From Crambe crambe (lineage: Eukaryota > Porifera > Demospongiae > Poecilosclerida > Crambeidae): a stretch of DNA of 64,000 nt. Made by a program: the position numbers and the translations under genes. The notes under the pieces were generated by a model. The model saw only the letters and a program-made list of their open reading frames with translations, made no database searches and had not been told where the DNA came from. Shown in pieces: positions 11,439 through 46,279 of this stretch (within the stretch, counting starts at the first letter, position 1; every line of letters starts with the position of its first letter). The stretch spans positions 6,509,001 to 6,573,000 of the forward strand of contig OZ004584.1 of NCBI GenBank assembly GCA_963924555.1, read 5' to 3'.

Positions 11439-14400
11439 GTCATGTCAATGCTCCTTCTCAAGGGGACAGCAAGAGCTTGTCAGATGTTGAGTCTGTTACT
11501 TCTGACATATCAACTTCCAGTGACAAGATAAAAGTTTTTGTCTACTCAAGACCCGAATTTTCAAATGCTGTCACCAATAAGAAGTTTAGTCAACACTTCA
11601 AAGAGTTTGAATCTGGGATTGACCATGCTTTTATTGCAAAAAATAGCAAGACACGCCAATCCCTTGGATTTGGAATCATTTTCTTTTATTCTCTAGAAAT
11701 GGCTAACCTTGCTATTCAGAAGATGAGAAATACTAAAGTCATGGGAGAGTTTCAAATTATTTCAATTGGTAAAAAAGGTGAACTTCAATCACCTTCAGGT
11801 CCCTCTTTAGTGGATAGGACCAAGTTTAATGATGATGCAAGCATTTCTTCAGGCAGAAGTGATTTCCAGCCAACTTATAGTGGACCTGTCCACTCACAAC
11901 CTCCTGCAGACTGTATTCATGCCTATGTCCCTCAAACTAATCCAGCAGCTCCTCCTAATGTGGATGATCCACAGCAAGTATCAGTGAAAGTTACTCACCT
12001 CCCTACTACTATAACCAAAGAAAAACTGCATTTGCACTTCTTAAAGGCAGGGGAAATCAGAGGTGAACCTGTTATTCATGTCACCGATAAATCAGTTTAT
12101 GCTCATGTTAACTTCCACCAACCCATGTCAGCGCAGAATGCAGTATCTATGCTTAACAATAGTGTCATTGATGGTACAACGATCAGAGTTAAGCTTGCTC
12201 GAATGAAATCTCCAAATGCTGAGACGAAGTCCATTGAACGTGATAACTATGAAAAAGTTCTGAAATTGGATCCCAATCAGTGGAACACATTGATGCTGGT
12301 TAATCCAAACAGTGGAACATCACTATTCCAGGATGTAATATCTCCTTACAAGAGTAACCCCAATGTGATCATTCAGCTAGTTCATGAGAACCAGAGCGTG
12401 AAATTCTCAGGGAAGTTTGATGCTGTGGAAGATGCTTATTCCACCCTCAAGCGACAGTTGAATAAAGAACTTCCTGTCGACAAGTACGTACAATGTAGAT
12501 TATCTTAATGTGCTGTATATATACCAATGTACTGTGAAATCTTCATGGCTTGCCAAAATAAAAGTTCCACTCTATGCATGAAAACTTTTGTGGCTATCAT
12601 GTAATATTATTTTACTTCTTATTTCTTGCAGGTTAAAGAGAGAAGCTTTGGTTAACTTGAGGCCATCCTTACCTTCTGAGATCAACCAGAAGTATGGAGC
12701 ACATATTGTTGACTATCAAGGAATTGGGCCAACGATTCAATTCGAAGGTCCCATAACCGGCATTGAAAAAGCTCATGGTGAAGTTAAAGCTCTCGTGGAT
12801 AGCTTGTTCATGGAAGAAGTGAAATTAGAAAAGGAATATCAAGTTGATCAACTTGAAAAGGCAAGGAAACAAATTAAAGTTCCAGTTTATATCTGTTGCC
12901 CAGACTCATCACGAAGAAAGTCAGTAGTACTGTTTTCATTTGATCACACTACTCTTCAGAATTCAGCTCCTCGTGTAGTTCAACTTCTTTCTGTGAATGC
13001 TTTTCGTTTAAAATGCAAACCTGCAGAAGCTGTGTACTTACGATATTTCAAGAAAGATTTTATGTCCAAACTTCCAGCCAAAGCCACATTTGATGGTTCA
13101 GGAGAGAAAGTAACACTGAATGGTGGAGAAAACGAAATTCGAACATCCATAGAAATGATCCGTGCTCAAGTTTTTGAAGGATTATGCAGTGAAAAATTCA
13201 TTTATTCTTGTAACCCAAAGTTTCAATCTCAAATTGGAGAAACCATTCTTAGACCTTTCGAATTGGATGATCCTACTTTCCAATATATAACACCAAAGCT
13301 GTCTGGACAATCTAGTCGAGAAAAGGGACAGAGTAAAGGTCATCAAGCAAAGGATGAAAAAATAACTGTTTACATTTACTGCAGAAACCCAGAGTGCTTT
13401 GAGAAAGTATGTCAGTTACTTGAGGATTTGAATCCTGGCTCCAAGTTTTATCGTTTGCCCCATGTAAATGCTGCATCTATGATCAATGAAAACAAAATCG
13501 GGTTAGAAAATAAGTACAAAGTTCGAATCATGCAGGACCGAGCTTCATCTGTAGCTATCCACGGCTTAACTCAAGAAGAAGTGCAGCAATGCTACGATGC
13601 GATAAAAGAGCTTATTGAGTCTAATTTGATGGTTGTAAAGTATGTATCCGTAAACCCACAAATCGGCGAGCTTTTGAAGCTGTATCAGATAGAACTAGCA
13701 GAATTGAGAAGAGATTGTTCAGAATTAACTGTCCTTCCTCCAAATAAAGATAATATTAATGGGGTTATAAGAATCAAAGGCTCAATCAGTCAAGTGGATG
13801 ACATTAAAGAAAGACTTTCTTCTGGACTCCTCACTATGAACTCGTCAATGGAGCAGTTTGACCTTTCCTGCCCATCTGATCTATTTAAAATGTGGTGCAA
13901 TAGATGGAGTCAAGTCAGAGAGCAGGAAAAAAAAAGGTCAAAAGTTCTTCTTACCTTCAGCGAGTCAGGTCAGGGTAGTGGTGACAATAAACATGTCAAA
14001 TTCACTGTTATTGGAACTGACGAGATTGGAGTACAAGAAGTCAAGGATGCTATCCTTTCTGAAGGGGTTCAGGTTGAAAAAAAAGTCATTGAATTACCAC
14101 CAAATGGTGCAAATTATCTACTTAAAGCCAAAAAGGACAAAAATATGGACTTTCTGAAGAACGTAATCGTAAATGTTGGATATATAAAAAAATCTACAAA
14201 CGAAGTGACTCTTTTTGCCCCCAAGGAACTTGAAGAAAATCTTTCCATTGCTGAGGAGAAAATTCGTGAATTTATTGGTGACCGTGCAAGCACAAGCGAC
14301 ATCATTTACAGTAAAGATCCTGTTGTAGGCTTGATATTACTTTCACCTGTGAGATCAGTGCATCATATAACAAATGCTAATGCCATCGCTGGACAGCATC

Positions 14401-16715
14401 AAGCCTCTGTGCATGTTCTGAAAAAGCCCAGTGTGGGTCTCCGTATCAGTGGTTCTGAGACTGCCATTGCCAAAGTCAAACCATTCATTCAGTCCACCAT
14501 TGAAGCAATCGAGAAAACCATTGGAGAGAAAAAAGTGCCTATTAAAGCTCTCCATGTTCCCTTGCTAACATCTACCGAATTCACAAGATTTCAGTCTAAA
14601 CTTGAAAGTGATCTCTGTGTGACATGTTCTTATCCTAAATCTGGCAAAGTGGCCAAGCTCATATGCAGTTCATTAATTCGATTGGATAGTGCAGGATATG
14701 TCAAAATTGACATCTGCAAAGGTGATCTCATTTATGAGCAGGTTGATGCTATCGTAAATGCTGCCAATGAAGATCTGAAGCATATTGGAGGACTGGCTAA
14801 AGCTATTTCGGATGCTGGTGGACCAAGTATACAGACTGAAAGTGATGACTATATTCACACGAACTGCAAGGTTAAACCTGGACAAGCAGTTTGTTTAGGA
14901 GCTGGAGATCTTCCCTGCAAGAAAGTGATCCATGCTGTCGGACCTCGCTGGATGGGTGGTCACTGCAATGAGGAGCAGACTCTATATTTTTCTGTTTTCA
15001 AGAGCCTCGAGGCAGCATCTAATGAATCACTCTCTTCCATAGCTTTCCCTGCTATTGGCACAGGAGTGTTCAATGTGCCAGAAGACATATGTGCCAGAGC
15101 ATCTTTGAAAGCAGTACGAGATTTTTGCCAAGCTTTTCCATACACTTCCATCAATACGGTGAAATTTATACTATTCCAACAGAGTTCTGTCAATGTGTTC
15201 AAATCACCAATCATGTCAGGTCAGTGTGGGGAATATCAGCATGGTAACCAATCAGCTGTAAGGTCTCCTTATGTCCCTGAATCCAGTCCAGCTTCAAACA
15301 TCACCAGAAACTGGCAATGGAAGAATGACCAAGGAACATTTACTTCCTACAGCAGTGAAATCTCCAACCATCTGACTGCTGCTTTTCAATCATCTCCGAA
15401 GGGATCCGTTCAAGTCACAATAAATGGAGTTCCATATGTTATTGACGTTGCTAAGATGAAGCAGACTAATAGTCTCACTGGTTACTCCAGACAAATCACT
15501 CAAACATCTGATTCCTCAGACTTCCAGTGGATGTACCAAGATGATAATTCTGCATGTGTTTATTACACACCTAATGATTCAAAATCAATTGAGACTATGT
15601 TCCTATCCAAAACTCCTGGTCAGTTGATCATCAATGGAAGGATATATACGTTTGATTTCACTCAAATGTGTCAGATTAACAAAGCCACTGGATTTAAACG
15701 TGACATATTACGACGAAATGCTCCCAAAGTTGAAACACTCTTGGAATCTCCAGATAATGTGGGAAAACATGAGCCAAAGCTATCAAATGATATCATTTTG
15801 ACCTTACGAGGTCCATGTGAGAGTTTGGGAGCTGCTGAGGAAAAGGTGATCTCCAAGTTGAAGAGTGCCAACAGTTCTCAAATCTTGGATACTCTTCCAA
15901 AGAATGTGACTCCAGCTCTGAAGAAGAAGCTTCAACAGATTGCAAAGAAAAATAGCCTCATGTATTCATTTGAAGAGAAATCTGAAAAGCAGGTGATGAA
16001 AGTTGAAGGAGTCTATTTCAAAGTTCAGGCTGCAGTTAATGCTATCAATGAAGAGATTCTTACCTTTCTTGTGACATCTGTTGCATCTGAAGACGATCTT
16101 CAGTTCCCCCCGGAATGGGTGCAGCAGACTCAAACCACTGAGCTATTTCAGGTGACTTGTGGCAGTCCAGAGTGGCAGCAGGTTGAAGGGAAGTTTTCAG
16201 CTACAATGGCTGGTCATCCAATTCACAGTATCGCTCGCATACAAAACAAATGGCTGTGGGAAAAGTATGCTATTCAGAAGAAACGTATGGGTCAAAAGAA
16301 CCAAGGTCGTGTCAATGAGATGCAGCTGTTTCATGGAACACGTAGCAATGACCCGAAGTTGATATACGAAGGTGAAGATGGGTTTGACATGCGATATGGA
16401 GCTCAGGGGATGTGGGGTGTGGCTAACTATTTCGCTGTTAATGCCAGTTATTCTAATAACTATGCTCATCAATCTCAGATGGGAAGAAAAGAGATGTTTC
16501 TTGTCAAGGTGCTGACTGGTGATAGCCATGAATGTCCATCTAATCGTTCTCTGCGCATGCCTCCAGTCAAGCCAACAACTGGTGGAGCTCAGGGAGGTGA
16601 CGTCCAGTTTTCTCAGATGAAGTATGACACTGTAACAGGACACACCAATGGCTCTCAAGTCTTCATGACTTATGATAATGACAAGGCCTACCCTGCATAC
16701 CTCATCTCCTATTAA
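11439..16715 (+). CDS. PARP14-like mono-ADP-ribosyltransferase (RRM, macro, two WWE, PARP catalytic)
   Basis: Two exons were read: about 11439-12483 and 12632-16715 (donor AA|GTACGT, acceptor TTCTTGCAG, matching phase). Order of domains: RRM-like (about 11535-11770) and a second RRM (about 11975-12220); a long region of KH-like repeats (12640-14680); one macro domain (about 14695-15195, with VDAIVNAANEDLKHIGG and AFPAIGTGVFNVP); two WWE domains (about 15305-15490 and 15520-15700); and the PARP catalytic domain (about 16110-16715). The catalytic His is in LFHGT and the Tyr in NYFAVNASYS. The position of the PARP1 Glu is Val (SQVFMTYD), so mono- rather than poly-ADP-ribosylation is expected. 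Human PARP14 has three macro domains; here there is one. The 5' end is uncertain: TGA at 11402 closes the frame and no ATG occurs until about 11698. Either an upstream exon splices in at 11439 or the gene is 5'-truncated. Confidence 0.85.
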
Positions 16716-22923: not shown

Positions 22924-23351
<428 letters not shown>

Positions 23352-26084
23352 CTACCTGATATTTTTTTCAGTGAGTGATCTTTTAATGTTTTTTGATGTT
23401 TCTGTAACACCATCTTCTCGTGCAGATGCATAGCGTTTAGGTGCAGTGTCACTCCTTCGAAACATAGCCTTTCCCCTCTTCAGAGGCATAGTAGATCCCT
23501 CAGCAACACTTCCACTCTCAGTATTGCTACGGGAACGGATTCCTGGAATTGAAATGTCAGGATTCTTCAATGCCTTGACAATTTTTACGACAGCAGAAGC
23601 AATTTCAGATGGGGAAGCATCTTCGTCTCCGAGTAGGGACCAATCAGATTCTGAAACATTTGGTGGTCGGACAAGGATGGTAGAGGGGACGTTAAAGGAC
23701 CCACCAGCTGCTCCTCCCGTTACTCGAATTGGAACGACATGATTTCCATTCCAAATGAACTGCTGTGCTTCAAAAGCGGCTCCTGGTCCTCCTTCGACGA
23801 GAATGCAGAGGTCAATGACTCGTGGTGTCAGCATTTCCCGTTGTCGTACGCTGTTACCAAAGAAAAGAGTGTCCCCATACGGAACTCGTTGGAAGGTACG
23901 ATCTGGATTTTGCCTTGTCTGAGTTGACTTGTCTTGTTCGTCTCTGATGGCTATAACATGGCAGACTCCATGAGGTTTTTTCATTCTTTCTCGCTCTTCG
24001 AAAAAACTCCTCCCCACCGTTTCTCCCACACCATAAAACCCTCCAGTGATGAGTATAATCTCTTCAACTCTTGCCAGCTGTTTGCCGATCTCCTTGCAAA
24101 TCGCTTCGCCACATTTCGAGTAGAACTTTGTACCCCCAGACACGTACATGTGCTGCCCTTCAGGTAACTCCTGCTCCAGTTGAGAGCAGAGACTTTCAAC
24201 TTCTGTCTTTCGTTTGACCACTTGATTCAACTCATCCACTGCCTTCTGGGGATTGAGAAGCGTGCCCACCCTATCAAGCATTGCAGATAAGTAGCTCTGT
24301 GATTTGCAATCGATAAAGGTGCTGGTACCGATCAGCGTTGCCATCCAGTTTGGCATTTCCAAAGGTTCGTAGATCAAAGGGATGATTCTCTTTCGCTGCT
24401 CACAGTAATACACTTGCTGCTCACAAAATGTGTCTTCTGCAAATTCTTTTGATAAGACGAAAATCACAGCTCCAGCCTCGTTCACTTTCTCTTGAAACAG
24501 ACCTGGTTTTTCCTCGTCCGTTAGGCCGTCAATATCACAGGAGCACCAAACTTCGTAATCCTTTTTCTCCAGTACCGTGACAAGACTTTGCGCAAAGTCC
24601 TTTTGTTCCTTGCAGCAACTGATGACGATGAATGGCTTCCCTTGTCTGGACTCAAATATGGACTTACGATATCTTTCAGGAAGTGATTGCGGGAGATTAG
24701 AGCCATAGCTTTTGATAGTCGACTTCCGTCGAGTTACGTCGGTCAAGAAAACTTTCAAGGTTGGAGAGGGACAGCAGGAATCCTCCACGATTCTCACTGT
24801 GCTTTCCTTTTTCAGCAACGGAGGAGTAGTTAGACCCGAATTAGTGCTTTCTTCATCGGGAGACAACTCTTTCCGGTATCTCTCAGCGATTTCAGCTGCT
24901 ATTTTTGAAGCATCGCTCTCCGTAATACTCTCCAAAGTCACTTCCTTTCCTCCTGCTACTCCGTCACCTGATATGACTTTGTCTCCATGAATGTACTGGG
25001 TTGTGGCAAACTGAATTGCAAGACATTTCGGAGGCCATGTTTTATTGAAATTGACTGGCAAAATCAACTTCCCTAGGACATCAGCTAATTTTACTTCACG
25101 ATTTGTCCATAGTGTCTGACCATACTGCATTGTGATCAAGGGAACAAATAGAGAACAGTTGGTTATAGCATCGTTCAACACATCTTGCCAATCTCTTCCA
25201 CTCTCAATGCAGTGAACATCCAGAAACACACGATAGCCTAAATATTCCAAGGCATTCTTGAGAAGCACAGCAAAAGGCCCGGCCTCTGTGTGCACGTAAC
25301 TCAGGAGAATTTCAAACAGATCGAAACTTGAAGAGGGTGCTTTCACATCCGTGTAAACCAAAGAGTTCAATCTCTGATCAGTGGAGTCATTATTCTCATT
25401 GATAGGAGCCAAGTCTTCACCATCGTTTGGTAAAGAATTATGCAGTTCCAATTGTTTTCTTTCAATGTTTTCAATGCTAGGTAGGCTGTTTTCAATCGTT
25501 GATACTCTCTTGATCTTTGCATTTTGATTGCAACGGATTTTAACTGTGTGAAATACGACTACCTCCATAACGGTTAGCATGCTCTCTTGCCTCTTACTAA
25601 TCGGCCACAGATTGCGATCCAGGAAACAGAATTGTTGTAACAAGAGAGATTTGTACAGAGAAGGTAACTGGCTGCTGATCTCATGGGCGAGATCGGCAAC
25701 TGTGCAATCCAGATTGCAAAACACAAAACCCACAGGAAGATCAGGTGATCCCTCTATGACGATGCCCAGACGTGGTTTATTGTACGTGAATCGAATGTTC
25801 ACCTTGCCTTCTGCAGAGAGAATGTCCCGTAGTTTCACTACATTTTCAAGGTTTTCATTAATCTCCCAACCGTGTGGGCTCAGGAAAAGGTAGTCACGGT
25901 GCTTGAGGGTGTCGAAGAGTAGTGTAGTGACTTCATTCCGGAATTGGGTTAGAATTTGGGAATGAGACTCAGGGGTTACATGCACTGTTCCAATCACTTG
26001 GTTATGAATGGTGCTGGTTTCGTCACAGAGACATATTCCAACTAGAGGAGAGATTACCGACTTACTTACTTCCTCTGAAGTCAT
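23352..26084 (-). CDS. TIR-TIR-SLOG protein, intronless
   Basis: One uninterrupted frame of 910 residues from ATG 26084 to TAG 23352. Residues about 1-185 look like one or two beta-grasp (ubiquitin-like) folds. Residues about 254-375 form a TIR domain strongly recalling SARM1: YRVFLDVHCIESGRDW, then LWTNREVKLAD with Glu330 at the NADase catalytic position. Residues about 483-612 form a second TIR (KPFIVISCCKEQKDFAQSL) with FCEQQVYYC, which puts Gln557 at the Glu position. Residues about 645-840 form a SLOG/LOG-like Rossmann domain: YVSGGTKF, ITGGFYGVGE, GNSVRQREML and EGGPGAAFEAQQF. TIRs of the SARM1 type cleave NAD+, and SLOG domains bind nucleotides (TRPM channels; ThsA of bacterial Thoeris binds a cyclic ADP-ribose isomer). 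A role as a one-polypeptide producer and sensor of such a signal is inference. The basic Ser/Arg-rich tail from about residue 850 is probably disordered. It is transcribed divergently from CSTF3. Confidence 0.88.
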   Translation of the reverse strand: MTSEEVSKSVISPLVGICLCDETSTIHNQVIGTVHVTPESHSQILTQFRNEVTTLLFDTLKHRDYLFLSPHGWEINENLENVVKLRDILSAEGKVNIRFTYNKPRLGIVIEGSPDLPVGFVFCNLDCTVADLAHEISSQLPSLYKSLLLQQFCFLDRNLWPISKRQESMLTVMEVVVFHTVKIRCNQNAKIKRVSTIENSLPSIENIERKQLELHNSLPNDGEDLAPINENNDSTDQRLNSLVYTDVKAPSSSFDLFEILLSYVHTEAGPFAVLLKNALEYLGYRVFLDVHCIESGRDWQDVLNDAITNCSLFVPLITMQYGQTLWTNREVKLADVLGKLILPVNFNKTWPPKCLAIQFATTQYIHGDKVISGDGVAGGKEVTLESITESDASKIAAEIAERYRKELSPDEESTNSGLTTPPLLKKESTVRIVEDSCCPSPTLKVFLTDVTRRKSTIKSYGSNLPQSLPERYRKSIFESRQGKPFIVISCCKEQKDFAQSLVTVLEKKDYEVWCSCDIDGLTDEEKPGLFQEKVNEAGAVIFVLSKEFAEDTFCEQQVYYCEQRKRIIPLIYEPLEMPNWMATLIGTSTFIDCKSQSYLSAMLDRVGTLLNPQKAVDELNQVVKRKTEVESLCSQLEQELPEGQHMYVSGGTKFYSKCGEAICKEIGKQLARVEEIILITGGFYGVGETVGRSFFEERERMKKPHGVCHVIAIRDEQDKSTQTRQNPDRTFQRVPYGDTLFFGNSVRQREMLTPRVIDLCILVEGGPGAAFEAQQFIWNGNHVVPIRVTGGAAGGSFNVPSTILVRPPNVSESDWSLLGDEDASPSEIASAVVKIVKALKNPDISIPGIRSRSNTESGSVAEGSTMPLKRGKAMFRRSDTAPKRYASAREDGVTETSKNIKRSLTEKNIR

Positions 26085-26349: not shown

Positions 26350-46279
<19,930 letters not shown>

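Follow-up and report, generated by a model that had tools for sequence, protein, structure and literature searches.

Introduction

Animal TIR enzymes can make cyclic ADP-ribose (ADPR) isomers, and to our knowledge it is still open what reads these molecules in animals. SARM1 has the layout ARM-SAM-SAM-TIR, and in LOG enzymes the Arg and the Glu of a GGxGTxxE-type site are catalytic. The SARM1 TIR is reported to yield glycocyclic ADPR as a minor product, and the SLOG-like domains of TRPM channels have been pointed to as candidate readers (PMC11025887); the MHR1/2 region of TRPM2 has been reported to bind ADPR (PMC13143021). In ThsA, the residues R371, K388 and E403 were described to coordinate 3'cADPR, and changing R371 and E403 also raised the resting NADase activity in planta (PMC10022894). 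A recent atlas of eukaryotic TIRs places SARM1 within a mainly bacterial TIR clade, and its main text contains neither the word 'SLOG' nor 'sponge' (PMC13142454). Among the open-literature matches listed there was no animal TIR-SLOG protein, an earlier mention being possible. The SLOG survey likeliest to mention such proteins is reportedly that of Burroughs 2015.

Here, we describe a gene of the sponge Crambe crambe, which joins two TIR domains and one SLOG domain in a single chain. It lies in a stretch of 64,000 nucleotides (contig OZ004584.1, assembly GCA_963924555.1), hereafter called the window.

The locus and its host genome

All three domains are supported within one frame of 910 codons without a stop (Table 1), and the original prediction of TIR, TIR and SLOG in one uninterrupted chain is thus borne out. 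The N-terminal 245 residues gave no Pfam match above cut-off (the best, PSF3_N, reached 14 bits against 27) and no NCBIfam match. The Pfam scan gave no match in the tail behind SLOG either, which agrees with the earlier remark that no obvious killing effector follows this domain. A search of the sponge's own genome (143,139,886 bases, 119 contigs) with the protein returned the full gene once among at least four matches; the remaining ones, at least three, cover part of TIR1 alone (E 2.6e-7, 0.0015 and 0.86).

Table 1 Features of the TIR-TIR-SLOG gene and its divergent neighbour, in window coordinates
Feature	Position	Strand	Basis
TIR-TIR-SLOG protein, single-exon ORF of 910 aa	23352..26084	-	ORF and own-assembly protein search
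N-terminal region, residues 1-245, without accepted family match	25350..26084	-	Pfam, NCBIfam
TIR1, residues ~254-375; Glu330 codon 25095-25097	24960..25325	-	TIR_2 and SARM1 TIR matches
TIR2, residues ~483-612; Gln556/Gln557 at the catalytic-Glu site, 24414-24419	24249..24638	-	TIR_2, alignment
SLOG domain, residues ~645-840	23565..24152	-	Profile searches, family alignments, model
SLOG Arg749 codon	23838-23840	-	Alignment
SLOG GGPGAAFE motif; Glu772 codon 23769-23771	within 23565..24152	-	Alignment
C-terminal tail, residues ~841-910, Ser/Arg/Lys-rich, no domain	23352..23564	-	Sequence; Pfam
CSTF3 first coding exon, divergent neighbour	26350..26487	+	Exon end by reading; peptide match to 6uro

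The start codons of the gene and of CSTF3, which runs on the opposite strand and carries introns, are separated by 265 bp on a 9-Mb contig, and the peptide of CSTF3 exons 1 and 2 aligns with the CSTF3 chain in 6uro at E 2.1e-17. Members of the Wnt family gave 14 matches in the genome and none in any of the 14 control genomes. Judged by this setting, the locus belongs to an animal genome, as had been claimed, since a divergent intron-bearing CSTF3 adjoins it and the genome contains the 14 Wnt matches.

Right downstream of the stop codon runs a long (CT)n tract (~23118-23230). About 7 kb from the gene lies a PARP14-like gene on the plus strand (11477-16715), for which Pfam recognises RRM, Macro, two WWE stretches and a PARP catalytic domain across two adjoining long frames. 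Three successive minus-strand ORFs (33599-34759, 36587-37849 and 39785-41056) match the fibrillar-collagen C-terminal domain, one above the cut-off (31 bits) and two below it (20.5 and 23.7 bits), and are possibly tandem copies.

The two TIR domains

Searched as isolated domains, both TIRs clearly exceed the TIR_2 cut-off of 28 bits (TIR1 55.1, TIR2 47.6), so the second TIR was correctly recognised. Among solved structures the SARM1 TIR is closest to TIR1 by sequence (E 1.7e-5); Glu330 stands opposite the catalytic Glu of SARM1 and the SARM1-like stretch ahead of it is kept, as expected for the SARM1-like TIR that had been proposed. The best named matches of TIR1 come from NADase or signalling systems (the TIRs of ThcB4, a retron and SARM1), those from NCBIfam lying far below their whole-protein cut-offs. 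The closest NCBIfam model, ThcB4 of Thoeris type III (2e-14), indicates kinship at the domain level only, since its 53 bits fall far short of the cut-off of 220.

TIR2 has a Gln at the position of the catalytic Glu. The alignment pairs Gln557 with Glu330 and opens one gap ahead of the following strand; counted back without a gap, Gln556 takes the catalytic position, and Glu555 is one or two residues off. Loss of the catalytic Glu is therefore likely rather than certain, as Glu555 sits so close. Because a Gln replaces this residue, TIR2 is probably a pseudo-enzyme and no second producer. Among solved structures, its best relatives by sequence are TIRs of the Toll type, matched weakly (E 0.017 and above).

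The SLOG domain and its relatives

The isolated SLOG domain misses both Pfam families, reaching 25.6 bits for LDcluster4 (cut-off 26.3) and 17.5 for STALD (cut-off 24). In the six-frame genome search it again stayed below the LDcluster4 cut-off (24.7 bits), and the STALD search did not pick it out. Profile searches therefore confirm the two predicted TIRs above cut-off, whereas the SLOG domain on its own falls short of both LDcluster4 and STALD.

A prokaryote scan of one genome per species (84,980 species), restricted to two short peptide patterns, yielded 75 candidate stretches, two of which are relatives: one from Candidatus Eisenbacteria (L018; 38% identity across the whole domain, E 4e-35) and one from Lacipirellula (L019; 34% across the whole domain, E 3e-27), these E-values being relative to the candidate stretches only. 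Both are free-standing proteins, the closest SLOG relatives found in this pattern-limited scan, and both lie above the LDcluster4 cut-off, as does the TIR-fused L017 treated below. No TIR gene adjoins either of them, by eye, within the stretches listed. As the nearest relatives are free-standing and without a neighbouring TIR gene, a sensor role does not follow from kinship. With a four-row profile, and the best candidates alone scored per genome, matches at 1e-5 were obtained in 6 of 392 Planctomycetota genomes (252 bits in L019's own, 28-43 bits in the other five) and, among 47 genomes from the phylum of L018, in that of L018 itself only; the close SLOG family looks rare within the genomes sampled. 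Four pattern-limited scans of viral contigs gave no SLOG relatives, and none were found in phages. In the plasmid collection, the SLOG query matched one record, from Burkholderia (E 0.6), and L018 as query matched none; a query from TIR1 to the end of the protein matched 43 records, the Burkholderia one at E 0.8, and the best 30 of the 43 otherwise concern the TIR part (best E 2e-4).

In phmmer, the SLOG segment alone matched no solved structure up to E 10, and as a single sequence it compared weakly with ThsA (21.6, E 0.012). The PADLOC model of ThsA aligns residues 623-840 with model positions 261-476 of 478 (E 0.0037). The SLOG family profile reaches 1rcu (8e-9), which we take to be a SLOG protein, a cytokinin phosphoribohydrolase (LOG, 0.0035), ThsA over most of the domain (0.0061) and TRPM2 (0.014); the last counts little alone, because unrelated dehydrogenases start at 0.018. 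A profile of six rows (window SLOG, L017, L018, L019, L023 and L024) scored 64.8 against the ThsA SLOG, the best of 100 column shuffles being 19.7. The three closest rows scored 53.9 when compared with L022, L025 and L026, three rows labelled LOG-like by eye, and 36.0 against ThsA, with maxima of 25.2 and 23.6, respectively, in 250 shuffles each; another column rule gave 45.8 and 36.7. AlphaFold, run on three rows for residues 630-850, returned alternating strands and helices (pLDDT 72.7, pTM 0.78); the whole protein folded without alignment gave a pLDDT of 32.6. Judged from sequence together with the order of strand and helix elements, residues ~645-840 are a real SLOG-superfamily domain. The proposed SLOG/LOG-like assignment thus stands, with relatives above the LDcluster4 cut-off and a family profile that reaches LOG and ThsA structures.

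In a 12-row tree, the window SLOG groups with L018 and L019 (82/95, not starred). Constraining it to ThsA gave a p-AU of 0.013, constraining it to the bacterial TIR+SLOG rows p 0.12; these tests are moderate evidence, as the groups were defined with the tree already in view and several branches are long. A ThsA-type STALD domain was accordingly rejected, given the STALD score, the genome search and the p-AU. The same results, together with the missing K388 loop and the LOG-like free-standing kin, contradict the idea of a ThsA-type sensor by descent, and suggest that the domain came from a bacterial LOG-like stock, not from Thoeris.

Along its full length the domain is conserved with the bacterial homologues, pocket residues included. 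Glu772 aligns with ThsA E403, and Arg749 either coincides with R371 or falls one residue from it, according to the alignment used. The K388-bearing loop of ThsA is absent from the window SLOG in the alignments; the ligand set R371/K388/E403 is not present as a whole, the Glu being kept. Arg749 is placed 16 residues ahead of the GG, and the motif GGPGAAFE ends in Glu772; this is the spacing of the LOG-like L026, and an Ala replaces the Thr of GGxGT. L018 and L019 read GGPGTAHE, also with an Arg 16 residues ahead of the GG as in L026, while of the bacterial TIR-fused SLOGs L017 has the Glu without the Arg and L024 has neither. Because the LOG-type pair Arg749/Glu772 is kept, the domain may process a nucleotide, not merely sense one.

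TIR and SLOG fusions in bacteria

L017, a protein of 1069 aa encoded on a 3.2-Mb replicon of Burkholderia stagnalis listed as a plasmid, places a TIR (53.7 bits) ahead of an LDcluster4 SLOG (27.9 bits). It is 22% identical to the TIR2-SLOG part of the window protein, with E 1e-7 when only the two proteins are compared; within the plasmid collection E is just 0.6-0.8, and the link is therefore one of common domains. L024, from a planctomycete and hence from the phylum of L019 (1-3048, minus strand), combines a TIR (51.1 bits), a SLOG of 22.0 bits, which is below the LDcluster4 cut-off, and a KAP NTPase. Identity to the window SLOG is 29% over 169 residues in L017 and 38% over 47 in L024. Since these two bacterial cases join TIR and SLOG, the fusion itself is, on this comparison, not an animal invention; what appears distinct in the animal protein is the double TIR, one probably without its Glu, combined with a LOG-like pocket. 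By eye, L017 is preceded by a gene for a MoxR-type ATPase. Such an ATPase also occurs in vWA-MoxR conflict systems, in whose published account TIR- and SLOG-fold modules are mentioned (PMC7159879); L017 may be linked to these systems.

Regarding the occurrence of the architecture, it is seen once in the sponge's own genome, where the LDcluster4 search found no second TIR+SLOG gene, while a chain of TIR and SLOG is bacterial as well. The other LDcluster4 matches in this genome are a LOG-like fragment (L011) and a fusion, L009 628-2112 (G000:C21:384383-384763), which pairs two nucleoside-processing domains, an adenosine deaminase (1.3e-64) and an LDcluster4/LOG-type SLOG (27.9 bits), in one frame of 494 aa. 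The TRPM-type SLOG family PF18139 gave no match in the genome, which is uninformative as it gave none in the controls either.

Possible functions

Given the domains, residues and SLOG kinship described above, we tentatively favour an intracellular TIR enzyme that would cleave NAD+ and carry a built-in nucleotide-binding control domain; we infer the NAD+ cleavage, the ligand, the direction of regulation, the cell compartment and any immune role. TIR1, with Glu330, would be the cleaving enzyme, and TIR2, its catalytic Glu probably gone, would serve as a surface for TIR-TIR assembly or as a scaffold. The SLOG pocket would bind an ADPR-type nucleotide, either TIR1's own product or that of another TIR, and this binding would switch the assembly on or off; the N-terminal 245 residues would probably take in an upstream signal. 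This reading is suggested by TIRs above cut-off, by Glu330, by Arg749 and Glu772 being kept in a SLOG conserved with bacteria, by the recurrence of TIR-SLOG in bacteria, by the role of R371 and E403 in ThsA and by the glycocyclic ADPR of SARM1. Counted against a control domain are the free-standing SLOG kin without a TIR gene alongside and the missing K388 loop. While the original observation is confirmed, its interpretation is partly supported: TIRs and SLOG do sit in one chain, but TIR2 is probably no producer, and regulation of the TIRs by SLOG, offered initially as a fallback, fits at least as well as cis signalling.

Alternatively, and somewhat unlikely in our opinion, SLOG could be a LOG-type enzyme that cleaves a nucleotide, perhaps TIR1's product, by hydrolysis at its N-glycosidic bond, which would turn the chain into a two-step NAD+ processor or a self-limiting switch. 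The free-standing L018 and L019 have the motif and Arg spacing of a LOG site, a spacing that the window protein retains along with the last Glu; LOG-like rows give the three-row family a higher score than ThsA does, and the Arg/Glu pair is not kept in the bacterial TIR-fused SLOGs. However, the Thr of the site is Ala here and the LOG-like label was given by eye. We know of no assay for this clade.

An adaptor without enzymatic function, in which both TIRs make protein contacts as in Toll/IL-1R signalling and SLOG is structural or a relic, would suit the probably altered site of TIR2 and its weak Toll-type relatives, the activity of TIR1 being predicted from sequence; we consider it quite improbable, as TIR1 keeps Glu330 with the SARM1-like stretch before it and the SLOG pocket residues are conserved with bacteria. 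That fused neighbouring genes, a pseudogene or bacterial contamination simulate the protein is highly improbable, for although the ORF is intronless and its GC3 (0.44) exceeds that of the two neighbouring ORFs for which it was determined (0.34-0.35), one 910-codon frame holds three conserved domains and the intron-bearing CSTF3 starts 265 bp away on the 9-Mb contig.

It is possible, if rather doubtful, that one animal protein makes an ADPR-type immune messenger through TIR1 and reads or destroys it through SLOG. If so, it would be a self-contained producer-reader or carry an enzymatic off-switch, with a SLOG that is LOG-like kin and not ThsA kin; among the literature matches listed, such a producer-reader in one chain has no described counterpart. 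A TIR with its catalytic Glu, fused to a SLOG pocket, would be a second candidate reader beside TRPM, and would make the reader question testable with a single purified protein.

Comparison with known systems

ThsA (SIR2-SLOG/STALD) and the window protein both place an NADase domain, predicted in the latter, ahead of a C-terminal SLOG, and they have the pocket Glu in common, with the Arg at or near R371. They differ in that the window protein has TIRs where ThsA has SIR2, for which Pfam gave no match in ten ORFs of the window, and in that its SLOG does not reach the STALD cut-off, is without the K388 loop and is disfavoured as a group with ThsA. In the Thoeris system as a whole, producer and effector are encoded by separate, adjacent genes, in contrast to the one chain described here. 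With SARM1, the sponge protein shares a TIR that keeps the catalytic Glu, yet Pfam matches neither SAM nor ARM domains in it. In L017 and L024, too, a single chain has a TIR ahead of an LDcluster4-type SLOG, that of L024 being sub-cut-off, but they have one TIR each, the Arg/Glu pair is not whole and L024 adds a KAP NTPase; L018 and L019, on the other hand, are without a TIR and keep the Thr of GGPGT. The MHR1/2 region of TRPM2, an LSDAT SLOG, is an animal SLOG too, with a profile match that is not significant by itself, but TRPM2 is an ion channel without a TIR, whereas the sponge protein joins its SLOG domain to two TIRs.
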